This document shows, one piece after another, positions 5,190-30,763 of a stretch of 35,005 nt of DNA. The position numbers and the translations under genes were made by a program. The notes beneath the pieces are model-generated. The model was not told the DNA's origin, did no database searches, and was given only the letters and a program-made list of their open reading frames with translations. Origin of the DNA: a virus; IMG/VR virus record IMGVR_UViG_3300043410_001649, positions 1-35,005 of that record, one strand, 5' to 3'. How positions within the stretch are numbered: position 1 is the first letter of the stretch; each line of letters starts with the position of its first letter.

Positions 5190-8100
5190 TTATTCAGTGT
5201 TTTTGTTGTTCGGAGTCCAGCTAGCTAGCTGAATATGTACTGGGTCAGGAGTAATAAATGTACCACCCCAACGCAATCCAAACTTAGATAAGTCAATAGT
5301 CTTGGATATTTCAGCCGCTTGTTGTCCACAATCAATAGCAACACCCGAACCGTGTGCGTTTACTTTGCCGCCCATACTTACAGGAAGTGCAGGTGTAGTA
5401 ATTCCGGCCGCTGTTGGGGTACCAGGAACTTTACCGCCCGCGGCTTGCCATGTTTTGTATAAACGCTCTTGCTCAGAGTCCGGACGATATAAACTCGCAA
5501 CAACAATCTTTTTACCGCTTGCATCTTTATATGCTTTAGCTGCTAATAGTAGGGCATTTTTAAAGTTTGTAGCAAGCAAATCAAAACTATCTTTACTTGC
5601 ATTGCCGGAGCCAAATTGCAATACTTCGTCAGGAATAATACCTGTTGTGCTCGGCGATGTTTCGCTACGGCCAATACCAGTTACACTTAGTACGTCAATT
5701 GCGTAACGACCTTCGTTGTAAGCATCAATTGGTGTTTTGCCTGCATACGTAATACCGGTGTTTGATTTTCTCCAGCGAACAGCTTCGTCAATCATTGCAT
5801 CTAAGTTGCTACCAGCTCTCTTAGACACTGCACTTCTAAACAAGTATGTAACGTAAATCATGCCTGCAACTGCACAAACACTGTCACCACCTTTAATACC
5901 GGCCGGACTATATTTTGACAGGGCTTTGTGTGCATCTTTTACAAAAGCAACCATAACTTCATCCTGTGATGCTACTGACTTTAACAAGTCATCTTTGCTG
6001 TTTACGCTGTCTTTTCCAGTCCAGGCATTTTTATCTACTAATGCTAGTCCTTTGTACTTGTCTAGATAATCGGGTTTGATATACCCATACTCTGCTAGTA
6101 CCACAGCATTTAGTCCATAACGGCCAATACGTTCCCCGCCATTATAATCCGACGCAAAGTCACTTTCGCTGTATGCAATCTGTGTTAGTAATGCAGTTAC
6201 TTGCGGTGCTGTTAAGCCCGGTATGTAATTGTCGTCACCATAGCTACCAATGCCCTCAACAGAAGCTCCGGTGTTAGGTGCATTTGTGCGCTTCATTATT
6301 TCAGCTGGTGCCTGTTTTGTTACACTCTTGCCAGATGCCGCTTGGATACCTTGATCTGGCTCATCTGCTGCGCCAGTTTTAATCGGGTTGCCGGAACCAT
6401 CCGTAATTACAGTACCTGACCCACTCTTAACTACGCCACCGCCATCTTTATGCAAGAATTTCCATTGTGCTTTTAGTGCTTCTTTAGTTGGACCAGTTTT
6501 GCCTTTAGCGTGATTTGTTCCTTGTCCATCATAACGACCACGTACAGGGTTTAACTGCGGATCTTCAATACTTGCCCACTCGCCCGCAGTTGCACTACAT
6601 GCATTTAATAGAGCCGCTTCGTCGTTGGGGTCACCACCACTTAAGTATGTGTTAATCTTAGGTTGTTTTGTTTTGCATAGATAGTTAACGAAGATGTTAT
6701 CTTGAATGTCTCTGCTAAACTTTGAAGTTGTGGGGATGTTCAACTTCTTGCAGGCGCCGCGAAGTGTGTCGGGAATACACTGATAACGACCTACAGCAAA
6801 CAAACGTTGTCTAGGGTCGATGCTAGCCATTAACGCAAGAATTGCATCAATAGTCATATTCTCCAAGTTCATCGATTCACGTGGACTACCAGTGCCTGGT
6901 GGGGGACTTGATCCACGGTTAAACGCATTGTATCCAGCACCACCAGATTCAAATCCAGCAATAAAGTCACCAAATGGTCCTGCGCCTCCCGGCGAAACTT
7001 GACCAGCAGGTCCAGTTGAACTAGGTTGGTCTACGCACACATTTTTAAATGATGTTAGCGATACTGCTGATGCAGGAACTACAGGAGCCCCGCGATCATA
7101 CGGCTCGTGTGTCGGTGCCTTAGTAACGATACTTGTTAGTGTGCCACCGGCAGCTTCCCACAGTCCGTTAGGAGCTTTATTTGCGTCATGGTGTAAGTTA
7201 TCCTGTATATCACCGGGGTCGCTAACTTGTGCAACATCGCCGTCATTTAATTTAATTGCTGCGCCATTTAATAGCAATGTTCCGTTTGCCCCAACGCCCA
7301 CAGTGCCGCCACTTGTTAGCATAGTTGAGCCACCCGAACCAATACCAACCTTGGCCCCAAACAACGTCATGTTGCCGCTTGAGTGTACATCTAACGTTTG
7401 TGCAGACACTTTCATGCCTGCTGTTGCTTTCATGTTAATCGAAGAGCCTTGAATGTTCACCGTAGTGTCGCTGTGCAAGTTCAATGCACCTTGTGTACGC
7501 AAAGCAAATCCGCTTGTGCTGTACATTTGTATTGCGCCGCCGCTGTCAAATTCTAACCAAGATGTACCAGCAGAGTTTGCAATGTACAGTACTTGTTCTT
7601 TGTCATTCATTAAAATTTGGTGACCACCTGCTGTACGTAGTCGAATGCCTTGATCAACACCATCCTTGTCGCCATCATCCATAACAAAAGAATGACCGCC
7701 GCGACGTATAGTGGGAACTACATCACCAGGAGAAGATGGGCGACCCGGTGTACTAATCCCGAATACGCTACTAGGTGCTTCACGTAAACTACTTGACGTA
7801 GTTGCCCCACGGACTGGATCAGTGTCAAGGCCCTGGTTAATAATAATCTCTGCTTGGTACTGATGTACAGGGATCTTGTTTGCTAAGAACGTACCACTAA
7901 TGTTACTTTCACGAGTTTCGTTGAATTCACTTAGTGGCAAGTATGGCTTTCTATCAACACGAGATAAACTAGCCTCTACTAGGCCACCTGCACTAGTTTT
8001 ATCGACTTGATCTGCAAAGCGCGACGATACTCCTGGTACCATGTTGTGACTTAACTTAGTAGTTGTTGCTACTGCAAACCAATAGCCCTTACCCGAGTCA

Positions 8101-8438
8101 CCGTTAATAAATGTACACAATACTGTGTTGCCAACGTCAGGCGGAACGAACCACATACCATAAGTATGCTCCGATTGCTCATCTGTGTTGTCTGTATTGC
8201 TTTTAGGATTGTGTGTAGATCCATAGAATGGACTTGCATAAGTTACCCATTTCCAGTTATCCTCAACATCCTCATCGCCGCCGTAATCCGGAATCCACAC
8301 ACGCAAACGACCCATACGCAATGGGTCTACGTTTTGTTTAACAATTCCCGCATACGTACCAGGTGTAAACTTCATCCCCGGTGTGCGATTCTGGTCTGCC
8401 CAGTCTGGTAATCTTAACCCTACTCTAGTATCTGCCAT
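5190..8438 (-). CDS. 5: Baseplate central spike gp5 with several peptidoglycan-degrading domains
   Basis: This is the hub spike that pierces the outer membrane and digests the wall. The 1082 residues (T4 gp5: 575) appear to contain: an OB-fold N-domain (about 25-130; TYAGIVKQNVDPLRMGRLRV); a needle-type beta-helix region with repeating short strands (about 245-400); a lysozyme/transglycosylase-like domain (about 490-670) with E497 in FESGG and GRYQ at 550-553; a second lysozyme-like region (about 720-930) with E758 in YSESDF and GRYG at 772-775; and a C-terminal M15-type peptidase (about 945-1075) with likely zinc ligands H1029 and D1036 (HGSGVAID) and H1068 (VHIQ). The start has an AAGGAA ribosome site. 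The OB-fold, needle and M15 assignments are clear; the second lysozyme-like domain is less certain. Confidence 0.9.
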   Translation of the reverse strand: MADTRVGLRLPDWADQNRTPGMKFTPGTYAGIVKQNVDPLRMGRLRVWIPDYGGDEDVEDNWKWVTYASPFYGSTHNPKSNTDNTDEQSEHTYGMWFVPPDVGNTVLCTFINGDSGKGYWFAVATTTKLSHNMVPGVSSRFADQVDKTSAGGLVEASLSRVDRKPYLPLSEFNETRESNISGTFLANKIPVHQYQAEIIINQGLDTDPVRGATTSSSLREAPSSVFGISTPGRPSSPGDVVPTIRRGGHSFVMDDGDKDGVDQGIRLRTAGGHQILMNDKEQVLYIANSAGTSWLEFDSGGAIQMYSTSGFALRTQGALNLHSDTTVNIQGSSINMKATAGMKVSAQTLDVHSSGNMTLFGAKVGIGSGGSTMLTSGGTVGVGANGTLLLNGAAIKLNDGDVAQVSDPGDIQDNLHHDANKAPNGLWEAAGGTLTSIVTKAPTHEPYDRGAPVVPASAVSLTSFKNVCVDQPSSTGPAGQVSPGGAGPFGDFIAGFESGGAGYNAFNRGSSPPPGTGSPRESMNLENMTIDAILALMASIDPRQRLFAVGRYQCIPDTLRGACKKLNIPTTSKFSRDIQDNIFVNYLCKTKQPKINTYLSGGDPNDEAALLNACSATAGEWASIEDPQLNPVRGRYDGQGTNHAKGKTGPTKEALKAQWKFLHKDGGGVVKSGSGTVITDGSGNPIKTGAADEPDQGIQAASGKSVTKQAPAEIMKRTNAPNTGASVEGIGSYGDDNYIPGLTAPQVTALLTQIAYSESDFASDYNGGERIGRYGLNAVVLAEYGYIKPDYLDKYKGLALVDKNAWTGKDSVNSKDDLLKSVASQDEVMVAFVKDAHKALSKYSPAGIKGGDSVCAVAGMIYVTYLFRSAVSKRAGSNLDAMIDEAVRWRKSNTGITYAGKTPIDAYNEGRYAIDVLSVTGIGRSETSPSTTGIIPDEVLQFGSGNASKDSFDLLATNFKNALLLAAKAYKDASGKKIVVASLYRPDSEQERLYKTWQAAGGKVPGTPTAAGITTPALPVSMGGKVNAHGSGVAIDCGQQAAEISKTIDLSKFGLRWGGTFITPDPVHIQLASWTPNNKNTE

Positions 8439-19858: not shown

Positions 19859-20701
19859 TTAGCCGAAAAAATTTGATTGATCGAATTCTAAGTTGTTTGT
19901 GTATTCTTTAGTACACTCTTCACATTGTAGCGTAATTGGTTGTAACTTATTATTGCCAATGAGTTTGGTAATACGATCCTTAAGTTCAGTATACACTTCT
20001 CTACTTGAGTTCTCGATAAACTCAGCAATCATCTTTGGATCAGTTACTACAACTTCGTCCTCGGTTGTAATGCTTTCGATGCTAACAACTAGGGTGTTGA
20101 TGTTCATTGTTTTTAAACGTTCAAAGCTTTCTTTAAACATTGCACCTTTTTGCTCGTCAGTTAAGTCGGGGTTATTAATAATACCGTCGATTAGACGCTG
20201 TTCTTCAAAGTTAATTAAGTTAACATCGTTGATATCTTTGTATAGTTGTGGCTTAAACTGGAACTTAAGATTGTTAATAAACGCAGGCTTTGTGAAGTCG
20301 GCACGTTTTGCATCTGCTAAAATTACACGTAAATCCAACGCATGTTCGTTGCCATGTTTGCAGTGTGGGCACTCTGTGTTAATGTCCATAGCGTGACCGT
20401 AACTAGCAATACGAATAGCAATAAACAGCGGATCAACATCAACAGCGGGGACTTGCCAAGCGTTTTTAATGTTTGGGCAGCAACTTTGTATAATGTCCAC
20501 CATGCCCTGCCCGTTAAGCAACGCATCCGGGGTTTTAAGCGTTAATTCGTCCTTAACTGTCATTGGATATACTGGGATTTCGCCAGTTACTGGAAAATCA
20601 ATGCTCCCTTCAGCATAATACTGACCGCCAGATGGCAATTTTAAGTAAATTGCAGGCTGTCTAAAATGTTTGAATAGCGGGTTACTTGCCGGGTTCGACA
20701 T
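19859..20701 (-). CDS. 26: Baseplate hub assembly protein gp26
   Basis: A 280-residue protein of the T4 baseplate gp26 family (T4 gp26 has 208 residues), used in building the hub. Diagnostic segments: GGQYYAEGSIDFPVTGEIPV, MTVKDELTLKTPDALLNG, then QSCCPNIKNAW and FIAIRIASYGHAMDI. Two CxxC pairs (CPHC near residue 118 and CEEC near 264) could bind a metal. The start is ATG 20701 with GGAG upstream; a longer frame reaching 20767 would overlap the divergent tape-measure start and lacks a ribosome site. Transcribed away from gp29. Confidence 0.88.
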   Translation of the reverse strand: MSNPASNPLFKHFRQPAIYLKLPSGGQYYAEGSIDFPVTGEIPVYPMTVKDELTLKTPDALLNGQGMVDIIQSCCPNIKNAWQVPAVDVDPLFIAIRIASYGHAMDINTECPHCKHGNEHALDLRVILADAKRADFTKPAFINNLKFQFKPQLYKDINDVNLINFEEQRLIDGIINNPDLTDEQKGAMFKESFERLKTMNINTLVVSIESITTEDEVVVTDPKMIAEFIENSSREVYTELKDRITKLIGNNKLQPITLQCEECTKEYTNNLEFDQSNFFG

Positions 20702-29349: not shown

Positions 29350-29372
29350 AAAGGGCCGCAAGGCCCTTTTTT
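29350..29372 (+). terminator. Rho-independent terminator after gp23
   Basis: AAAGGGCC and GGCCCTTT pair around a GCAA tetraloop (29350-29369), followed by three more T. It also lies just past the end of the opposing 58-codon gene and could stop both transcripts. Confidence 0.9.
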
Positions 29373-29378
29373 GTTGGC

Positions 29379-29555
29379 TCAGCGATAACGTAGTTGCAAG
29401 AAAGATGCAATAGCGCAATCTGGTAATGTAATAGAATACCCGTCACTTAGTTTACTAAATGGCTCGTGTTTAACTTTGTTAACACGAAGCAACTCGATTA
29501 CTGATTGAATGTTTTGTGCCGGTATCTATATAGTAACTAATTTAGCTGTATTCAT
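29379..29555 (-). CDS. 58-codon gene with in-frame TAG at codon 10
   Basis: The frame begins ATG at 29555, overlapping the end of the upstream gene by 14 bases, with an AGGA-type site (GAGGA) about 8 bases upstream. It reads MNTAKLVTI, then TAG at 29528-29526, then IPAQNIQSVIELLRVNKVKH and continues to DCAIASFLQLRYR and a TGA at 29381-29379. The frame after the TAG is open for 48 codons, looks like ordinary helical protein, and has no other start near its beginning. The gene fills an otherwise empty stretch and ends beside the terminator. A CUA-anticodon tRNA is encoded at the head of the same operon, so readthrough to a 58-residue protein is the simplest reading. Function unknown. Alternatives are a pseudogene or a sequencing error. 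Confidence 0.55.
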
Positions 29556-30123
29556 ACGGTGTATCCTCGTCTGAATAATCGGCATTAATGTAGGTACTCT
29601 TGCTGTCGTATTCTTGAAAGTAATGCTCGTTGGGCATAAGAATTCTAAACTCGTTAGCATGTTTTAGTGCTAGCATAGTCATTTCACTCTTATCAAGAAT
29701 GTCACACACAACAAACTCGCTACTACATGCACCTTCGATAGTCTTGAACTTACTGTGCTGAAACTCTCGTTTCTTCAAAGCCTTGTGCAAGTCGCTGTCG
29801 GGTCGGAACATAATTCTAGTCGTGCCAATCTTTTGATTGCGTAGACGGAACTTGTCTCTTACAGTTAGTTTAGTGAGTGTTGCCTCATTGTTTGAATCGA
29901 TGACGACTAGTGCATCTTTAAACTTGAGACTGCCTTTAGTATGTGAATTATTAGGAGTTTCCTTTGTTGTCCACGGTAACATTGCATTAACGTGATTCAC
30001 ATAAAAAGTTTCACCATGGAATTTTAAGACCCACATGGGAATGGTCTGGTCTTCTAGATGTTTCTTGTTAAAGTGGAAGACAACCTCTTTACAAGCAAAT
30101 TCATTGATCTACGATTGTGACAT
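29542..30123 (-). CDS. 193-codon gene with in-frame TAG at codon 5
   Basis: The natural start is ATG at 30123: it overlaps the previous stop (TAATG) and has AAGGAG 8 bases upstream. The frame reads MSQS, then TAG at 30111-30109, then INEFACKEVVFHFNKKHLED, QTIPMWVLKFHGETFYVNHV and on to TPYEYS and TAA. The next in-frame ATG is only at codon 30 (30036) and has no ribosome site, and the stretch between TAG and that ATG looks like normal protein. With the amber-suppressor tRNA upstream in the operon, the product is probably 193 residues with an inserted amino acid at position 5. If the TAG is a true stop, a 164-residue protein from 30036 is the fallback. The protein is soluble, of mixed strands and helices; no known family is recognised with certainty. 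Confidence 0.6.
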
Positions 30124-30359
30124 TACTTTTTCTCCTTGGTGTTAGTGTCAAACGTTGGGGCAACTCTTGCTGCCTCTTCGGCGGTCATAAAGCGAGCATT
30201 GTTATCATGGAACCAATGCGGAGTTAATGACCAGCCAAAACTTTTCCAGTATTTGTGGATGATATTATTGGCAGTAACAATTGCAATTAAAATTATAATT
30301 AACCCAATTGCATACAAAATAGTGCCGGCTAAAAATGCTGCGGCGTTATCGATGTCCAT
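30123..30359 (-). CDS. Small single-pass membrane protein
   Basis: A 78-residue protein with one strong transmembrane helix (about residues 7-30; FLAGTILYAIGLIIILIAIV) and a charged C-terminal part of about 45 residues that probably faces the cytoplasm. Its ATG overlaps the stop of the GroES-like gene (TAATG) and its own stop overlaps the next ATG. Part of the tRNA-led operon. Function unknown. Confidence 0.75.
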   Translation of the reverse strand: MDIDNAAAFLAGTILYAIGLIIILIAIVTANNIIHKYWKSFGWSLTPHWFHDNNARFMTAEEAARVAPTFDTNTKEKK

Positions 30360-30640
30360 TAATTCTTCTCCACAACTAATAAGATATCCGATTCTTTAAC
30401 AACCAGATATTCTTCTTTATTTAATGTAACTGCAATAGCAGCTCCGACATTATACAGAACAACATCACCTTCTGCAACAGTAGGGGCAATTCTAACCCCT
30501 TCTGGAGTTAAACGACCGGCACCAGTCTTAATTACAGTAGCTTTGACGCTTTCGTCTGCATACGGGATATAAAATCCGCTTGATGTTTTTTGTTCTGGCT
30601 CAATCTTTTTGAGCATTACTCTGTCGTGCATTACTTGCAT
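30359..30640 (-). CDS. GroES-like co-chaperonin (functional analogue of T4 gp31)
   Basis: A 93-residue Cpn10-fold protein: HDRVMLKKIEPEQKTSSGFY at the N-terminus with the mobile-loop position after KTSSG, then VIKTGAGRLTPEG, EGDVVLYN, and the end EYLVVKESDILLVVE. Bacterial GroES has about 97 residues. T4 makes its own co-chaperonin (gp31) because gp23 needs it for folding with host GroEL, so a capsid-folding role is likely. AAGGA lies 5 bases before the ATG, directly against the CCA end of the tRNA. Confidence 0.88.
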   Translation of the reverse strand: MQVMHDRVMLKKIEPEQKTSSGFYIPYADESVKATVIKTGAGRLTPEGVRIAPTVAEGDVVLYNVGAAIAVTLNKEEYLVVKESDILLVVEKN

Positions 30641-30650
30641 AGATGTCCTT

Positions 30651-30725
30651 TGGTGCGCTAGACAGGAATCGAACCTGCTTTCTCGAGCTTTAGAGACTCT
30701 TGCTATACCATTTAGCCTCTAGCGC
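30651..30725 (-). tRNA. tRNA with CUA anticodon (amber suppressor), CCA encoded
   Basis: The minus strand folds into a complete cloverleaf. The acceptor GCGCTAG (30725-30719) pairs with CTAGCGC (30661-30655), then discriminator A and an encoded CCA (30653-30651). The D stem GCTA/TAGC has GG in its loop. The anticodon stem has three Watson-Crick pairs, a T-G pair next to the loop and an A-G mismatch at its top. The seven-base loop is CTCTAAA, with U33 followed by CTA (30693-30691). A five-base variable loop and a T arm GCAGG/CCTGT with TTCGATT complete it. Shifting the anticodon stem by one base breaks pairing, so CUA is the only sensible anticodon. The loop equals that of the classical supF suppressor. 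The short variable loop rules out a bacterial Tyr, Ser or Leu type. The discriminator A and G1-C72 do not fit the usual Gln identity; the amino acid cannot be told. Confidence 0.92.
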
Positions 30726-30735
30726 AATGAGTACT

Positions 30736-30763
30736 ATTATATATGATAACGGATTAATGTCAA
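30736..30763 (-). promoter_or_regulatory. Consensus sigma70-type promoter for the suppressor tRNA operon
   Basis: On the minus strand TTGACA (30763-30758) and TATAAT (30741-30736) are both perfect consensus, 16 bases apart. The tRNA begins 10 bases past the -10 box. Such a promoter would be read by unmodified host RNA polymerase, so early expression is expected. Confidence 0.85.

Follow-up and report, generated by a model that had tools for sequence, protein, structure and literature searches.

In phages of the genetic code 15 type, such as the crAss-like and Lak phages, a phage-encoded CUA tRNA reads UAG codons lying within genes while the host uses the standard code (PMC9523058, PMC13037316), and in selenocysteine and pyrrolysine decoding a stop codon is likewise read by a dedicated tRNA in a few genes. 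Amber suppressor tRNAs have also been reported from the phages XacN1 (PMC5852040) and Summit (PMC9022506), where their targets could not be identified. A UCA tRNA has been reported from Agrobacterium phage Atu_ph07 (PMC6102473), and the sections consulted of that paper and of the RsoM2USA paper name no specific target gene. For the PTH2 proteins of jumbo phages a part in ribosome rescue has been proposed, and for HD-type phosphatases a part in RNA-end repair (PMC7824862). Here we analyzed a 35-kb fragment from IMG/VR (35,005 nucleotides; hereafter the window, to which coordinates refer unless another sequence is named), whose capsid protein is nearest to those of Rak2-, CBB-, 121Q- and Vibrio 2.275-like jumbo phages, and compared it with related loci and with cultured phages.

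Layout of the Amber-tRNA Unit

An earlier note on this DNA had described a minus-strand unit made up of a promoter, a CUA tRNA, a GroES-like gene, a membrane-type ORF and two ORFs bearing an in-frame TAG, and this layout was recovered as first described (Table 1). The promoter that it called consensus matches in full, ARAGORN confirmed the CUA anticodon within 30640-30740, and the genes overlap at their junctions as claimed, with TAATG both between the GroES-like gene and the membrane-type ORF and between the latter and gene 3, while gene 3 and g4 share 14 nt. The GroES-like gene belongs to the GroES/Cpn10 family, scoring 71.3 bits against a Cpn10 cut-off of 21.1, and the membrane-type ORF frequently adjoins the tRNA in relatives. 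The hairpin assigned to the unit as its terminator does exist, but it scores as a terminator on the plus strand only and therefore may serve the convergent capsid gene.

TABLE 1. Features of the amber-tRNA unit in window coordinates.
Feature	Position	Strand	Basis or remark
Promoter-like site TTGACA-16-TATAAT	30736..30763	-	12/12 sigma-70 consensus match
Suppressor tRNA, anticodon CUA, encoded CCA	30651..30725	-	ARAGORN and sequence
GroES-like co-chaperonin, 93 aa	30359..30640	-	Pfam Cpn10 6.9e-20; phrog_3188 3.2e-19
Small membrane-type protein, 78 aa	30123..30359	-	Hydrophobic sequence; homologues in many relative loci
Shine-Dalgarno AAGGAG, 8 nt 5' of the gene 3 ATG	30132..30137	-	Sequence; spacing similar in relatives
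Gene 3, stop-gated, MSQS[TAG]INEFACKEVVFHFNKK..., 193 aa if the amber codon is read through	29542..30123	-	
Putative gating amber, codon 5 of gene 3	30109..30111	-	Kept at codons 3-10 in relatives with intact 5' ends
g4, small ORF, weak relative of the gene 3 C-terminal domain	29379..29555	-	
In-frame TAG, codon 10 of g4	29526..29528	-	K, R or V there in homologues
Hairpin separating the unit from the convergent capsid gene	29350..29369	.	Terminator score on + strand only

Conservation of the Start-Proximal TAG in Gene 3

A search of IMG/VR with gene 3 returned 44 loci, 43 of them usable and one cut before the 5' end. In all 43 loci with an intact 5' end, a Shine-Dalgarno sequence and an ATG were followed after one to eight codons by TAG, which thus occupied codons 3-10; since the search patterns sit downstream of the TAG, the search did not select for it. 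Retrieval by the GroES protein alone added eight further loci with gene 3, all eight gated in the same way, so that 51 of 51 metagenomic homologues whose 5' end is intact keep the TAG. The earlier note had named relatives with a start 3' of the TAG as evidence that would speak against recoding, and the opposite was found. An unannotated, shorter homologue, MSEFM[TAG]NESCREVIFHFNK, lies just before the tRNA-CUA of a cultured phage, Rhizobium phage RHph_I1_18. In addition, an early-stop scan that made no use of homology picked out gene 3 as the clear gated ORF in all four lineage genomes, and its TAA and TGA controls gave scattered noise. The presence of the TAG in every relative whose 5' end is intact indicates that, in gene 3, it is more than chance.

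Over the 25 codons 3' of the TAG, 33 distinct sequences gave a summed pN/pS of 0.097, which indicates strong purifying selection; the stretch is therefore taken to be translated and constrained at the protein level. No ATG occurs in gene 3 between the TAG and the Met of IPMW. Expression of gene 3 appears to hang on the CUA tRNA of the phage itself. The proposal that the phage tRNA gates two products, with both TAG-bearing genes as its targets, fared well for gene 3 and less well for g4, whose TAG is not conserved: its homologues carry a sense codon at that position, mostly for K or R, and the nearest relative (L002) is without g4. The TAG of g4 is therefore the weaker candidate for a second target of the suppressor.

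A conserved start followed so soon by a stop could also be a leader peptide, an ORF of 2-9 codons behind which the protein would start by reinitiation or at a non-standard codon such as AUU, with control exerted by termination. Regulation through short start-stop leaders is known, and the codon after the TAG is ATT in most gene 3 homologues. That codon nevertheless varies, being ATT, ATC, ATA or AAC in gene 3 and AAT, ACC, GTT or ATA in the Pth2 and HD genes described below, and the stop moves over codons 3-10 whereas the Shine-Dalgarno sequence is fixed to the ATG. Such a leader, moreover, would not require the type of stop to match the anticodon of a suppressor, yet a match is seen. We consider a leader peptide improbable.

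Use of TAG across the Phage Genomes

The possibility that the unit marks a phage-wide recoding, also raised in the earlier note, did not survive comparison with whole genomes. Under a code of the genetic code 15 type, TAG would stand for an amino acid throughout the phage and the gated genes would be mere examples; an in-frame TAG together with a phage CUA tRNA is what such a code displays, and in the window TAG ends none of the main genes and 0 of 25 long ORFs. In the whole lineage genomes G001, G002 and G003, though, TAG ends 4.4, 4.3 and 7.4% of long ORFs, and the range of 2-9% found in suppressor-bearing jumbo phages compares with 6.7% in RaK2, which has no suppressor. In G001-G003 and the window, no conserved gene other than gene 3 has an SD-ATG-TAG start. 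The first scan for in-frame TAG across genomes had returned mostly antisense shadow ORFs, and these were removed by a best-overlapping-gene filter. Given that TAG still ends 2-9% of genes, the phages do not follow code 15, and we hold reassignment throughout the genome to be very improbable.

The profile search for a matching synthetase with PF00152 (LysRS-type class II) gave nothing convincing, the one weak partial match being in Phosso. Among candidates for a matching release factor, short RF-1-domain ORFs were present in G002 and G005 and absent from seven other genomes, and so they are not a general part of the device; these ORFs (G002 231273-231590, 189 aa; G005 19924-20211, 130 aa) are possibly ArfB-like ribosome rescue factors.

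Start-Proximal Stops in Pth2-like and HD Genes

Whole genomes were then compared with cultured phages bearing lone suppressor tRNAs, and this revealed a second family, which is unrelated to gene 3 and has the same start-proximal stop. It consists of Pth2 and HD genes, some fused and some separate and not always in the same order, in which TAG is the third, fourth or fifth codon. In GAP32, CBB, BF, SNUABM_49, Kaldavass and XbC2 the PTH2-like gene starts M(A/T)(Q/H)[TAG]N(E/D)KTWIYVFVRTDLP and is overlapped by an HD-domain gene whose codon 47 is a second, conserved in-frame TAG, ELDTG[TAG]GDP (GAP32 290461-291027 and relatives); both genes are annotated as fragments in this group. The HD genes of ME3 and Arash are without an in-frame TAG, and the second TAG of the GAP32 HD gene aligns, by eye, with V in Arash. 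An HD-PTH2 fusion in XacN1 and RAS14 starts MK[TAG], as does a protein with the reversed domain order in Tenacibaculum phage pT24, while the starts are MT[TAG] in Acinetobacter phage ME3 and ML[TAG] in Salmonella phage Arash. Three uncultured megaphages, whose suppressor tRNAs are unconfirmed, have putative gates reading MTH[TAG], MNT[TAG] and MKN[TAG]. Against PF01981 (cut-off 23), Phosso (60.6 bits), pT24 (32) and XacN1 (25.3) scored above the cut-off, GAP32, ME3 and RAS14 fell below it, and Arash gave no match. The motif GK-[LI]-A-x-Q with its conserved lysine is present in Phosso and Atu_ph07 and replaced in the GAP32/XacN1 group.

A search of IMG/VR with the Pth2 alignment yielded 25 loci. 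A gating TAG was found in 20 of them, 19 with a tRNA-CUA within the fetched stretch; as to the rest, L269 was ambiguous, RaK2 was ungated and has no suppressor, and L278, L280 and L281 were ungated despite a CUA tRNA. In two Pth2 groups the pN/pS of the first 25 codons after the stop was 0.094 and 0.096.

The two families meet in Phosso and Atu_ph07, where the N-terminal domain of gene 3 forms the third gene of an operon headed by the gated Pth2, with overlapping stop and start codons. An ungated copy of this domain lies between tRNA genes in Paenibacillus sp. FSL H7-0326 (L316, about 7974-8225), in a locus with no suppressor. On account of these operons and this cluster, we conclude that the gene 3 domain moves together with tRNA genes and tRNA-maintenance functions. 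Gene 3 itself did not prove to be a PTH2 family member, and its sole link to that family is the context of the Phosso and Atu_ph07 operons. Gene 3 of the window had no Pfam match at E 0.1, and a PDB sequence search and Pfam on all gene 3 members gave nothing convincing. An AlphaFold2 model built on 34 sequences (pLDDT 78) had no Foldseek match at E<=0.001, and its best match in VIA-align reached Z 5.1 (rmsd 4.1, 76 aligned). An RRM-like fold was rejected, as the Z of about 3-4.6, for residues 83-166 only, is too low to mean anything, and a model of just the N-terminal domain (pLDDT 84) gave no match exceeding Z 2.6.

Stop Codon and Suppressor Anticodon

Phosso, which has two CUA tRNAs, carries a Pth2 gene starting MKY[TAG]VEEKL. 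Atu_ph07 has one UCA tRNA and no CUA tRNA, and its orthologous Pth2 starts MIGEHF[TGA]INYEELGYE, with TGA as codon 7. RaK2, with eight tRNAs and no suppressor among them, has a Pth2-like gene without a gating stop. Judged from these sequences, the type of stop pairs with the suppressor anticodon, the opal side being a single case; this pairing is predicted by a readthrough gate and by no other reading considered here. For the three ungated Pth2 loci (L278, L280 and L281) the contig nevertheless carries a CUA tRNA. DLP_5, a 96-kb siphophage, has a CUA tRNA at L259 270-343; the early-stop scan found no candidate there, nor did any of three frames of a 480-bp gap near its tRNA-Sup hold one.

Position and Anatomy of the Suppressor tRNAs

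ARAGORN predicted a tRNA-CUA in 40 of the 43 gene 3 loci, on the same strand as gene 3 in 40/40 and upstream of it in 39/40. The distance was 250 bp or less in 10, and the idea that decoder and targets share one transcript, although it stands for the window, thus describes a local arrangement. Each whole lineage genome (n = 3) has exactly one CUA tRNA. Where tRNA and gated gene adjoin each other, as in L003, L006, L022, L040 and RHph, the pair might be seen as a retained cassette, in which the tRNA stays in the genome because a gene has come to depend on it, with no regulatory role. In XacN1, RAS14 and Atu_ph07, however, the two are about 200 kb or more apart, and chance dependence would not predict that one class of genes is gated across unrelated phages. 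Retention of this kind is unlikely to be the explanation. Permuted two-piece tmRNA genes, mostly with ALAA-type tags, occur in many of these phages (L019 10536-10915, L020 10537-10952, G001 320035-320428, L117 37201-37621) and lie directly at the end of gene 3 twice; a 2.5-kb unannotated gap beside the tRNAs of XacN1, considered as a suppressor target, holds a tmRNA. RAS14 (OP752703.1) has a predicted tRNA with a UUA anticodon at 302428-302502, in addition to the CUA one.

The label 'tRNA-Pyl' is printed by ARAGORN for any CUA anticodon. The window tRNA does not have the architecture of tRNA-Pyl, in which D arm and variable loop are shortened: its sequence shows a 7-bp acceptor stem, a 7-nt D-loop with GG and a 5-nt variable loop. 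Its acceptor stem starts with GCG, and it has A73, A37 and a U31-G39 wobble. Across suppressor tRNAs A37 is universal and A73 nearly so, and the 31-39 position sets them apart. A Watson-Crick pair was present there in 21% of 53 distinct suppressor tRNAs vs 90% of 461 tRNAs of other kinds from these same loci and genomes, and a non-Watson-Crick combination in 79%, mostly C-A (27/53), vs 10% (Fisher p 3e-27, on sequences that are not independent). The UCA tRNA of Atu_ph07 also has C-A at this position. The mismatch may tune suppression.

We take GCG, A73 and U35 of the window tRNA to fit the identity elements of Lys better than those of Gln. These elements and the K or R found in g4 homologues point weakly to Lys as the inserted residue. 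The residue inserted at UAG could itself be what matters, placed site-specifically close to the N terminus, rather than any gating, and the near-N-terminal position is indeed kept. That position nonetheless ranges from codon 3 to codon 10 among varying flanking residues, K, R or V stands at the TAG position in g4 homologues, and one phage uses UGA and a different tRNA. A role of this sort is hardly credible.

Discussion

The anatomy of these loci and its conservation are solid. Readthrough of the gating stop itself is strongly implied, and a regulatory purpose, including timing, is the best available interpretation. A translation gate worked by the suppressor tRNA very probably explains the stops in gene 3 and in the Pth2 and HD genes. 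Ribosomes would initiate at an ordinary SD-ATG and meet UAG, or UGA in one phage, within the first codons. As long as the phage tRNA is missing, a host release factor would terminate after a few residues, an inexpensive OFF state that leaves no truncated domain behind; after transcription and processing of the suppressor tRNA and its charging by a synthetase of the host, some ribosomes would read through and make the full protein. Message and decoder would thus form an AND gate, i.e., a coherent feed-forward arrangement. The gated genes mostly belong to what would be a tRNA-maintenance or ribosome-rescue module, namely a Pth2-like hydrolase, an HD phosphohydrolase and, in the lineage of the window, the gene 3 domain. 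A gate that opens only with a suppressor made and charged would tie this module to the phage tRNA pool, and the module is likely withheld until that pool is functional. Points against the gate are the three ungated Pth2 loci with a CUA tRNA, the ambiguous L269, DLP_5 with its CUA tRNA and no candidate target in the scan, the ungated domain copy in Paenibacillus, the opal match from one phage, the g4 TAG that is not conserved and a gene 3 that gave neither a Pfam match nor a confident fold.

Beyond the first reading of the window, unrelated phages and an unrelated gene family contain the device as well, with a stop type that matches the anticodon. That many large phages without close relationship share it, for the most part in genes of tRNA maintenance, suggests an on/off switch of natural origin. 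On balance we favor a general class of phage switch, not a code change, in which a suppressor tRNA would open a start-proximal stop placed independently in Pth2, HD and gene 3 domain genes; stop and anticodon would co-evolve, and the lone suppressor tRNAs of many large phages would be explained. Opening start-proximal stops is the likely answer to what these tRNAs do. For XacN1 and Atu_ph07 one clear candidate target each is now at hand, that of Atu_ph07 bearing the very stop expected to be read by its unusual UCA tRNA. Standard gene callers do not reveal the pattern, because the gated genes are annotated as fragments or not at all.

The gated genes include the same PTH2-like and HD-type proteins as the jumbo-phage PTH2 and RNA-repair genes described previously, and a text search of that description found no mention of stop codons (PMC7824862). 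Targeted literature searches, with most subscription journals outside their coverage, returned no paper describing a stop-gated Pth2 gene. The chemistry of phage suppressor recoding is known; its use for one start-proximal gate, in which stop and tRNA are matched, appears to be undescribed. Unlike in code 15 phages, one start-proximal stop is found here in one or two specific genes while TAG elsewhere is a normal stop, and one phage uses UGA with a UCA tRNA in the same way. Unlike in selenocysteine and pyrrolysine decoding, the phage tRNA is of ordinary shape, the position of the stop is variable, and the PF00152 search found no dedicated synthetase. A further likeness is to a synthetic leak dampener, likewise a coherent feed-forward design, in which a suppressor tRNA permits nonsense readthrough in a regulated gene and for which TGA is also treated in a section (PMC7969014). 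The dampener is engineered and the phage arrangement is natural and conserved; if readthrough is confirmed, the phages would have a natural equivalent of that synthetic loop and, in it, a simple timing device coupled to their own tRNA pool.
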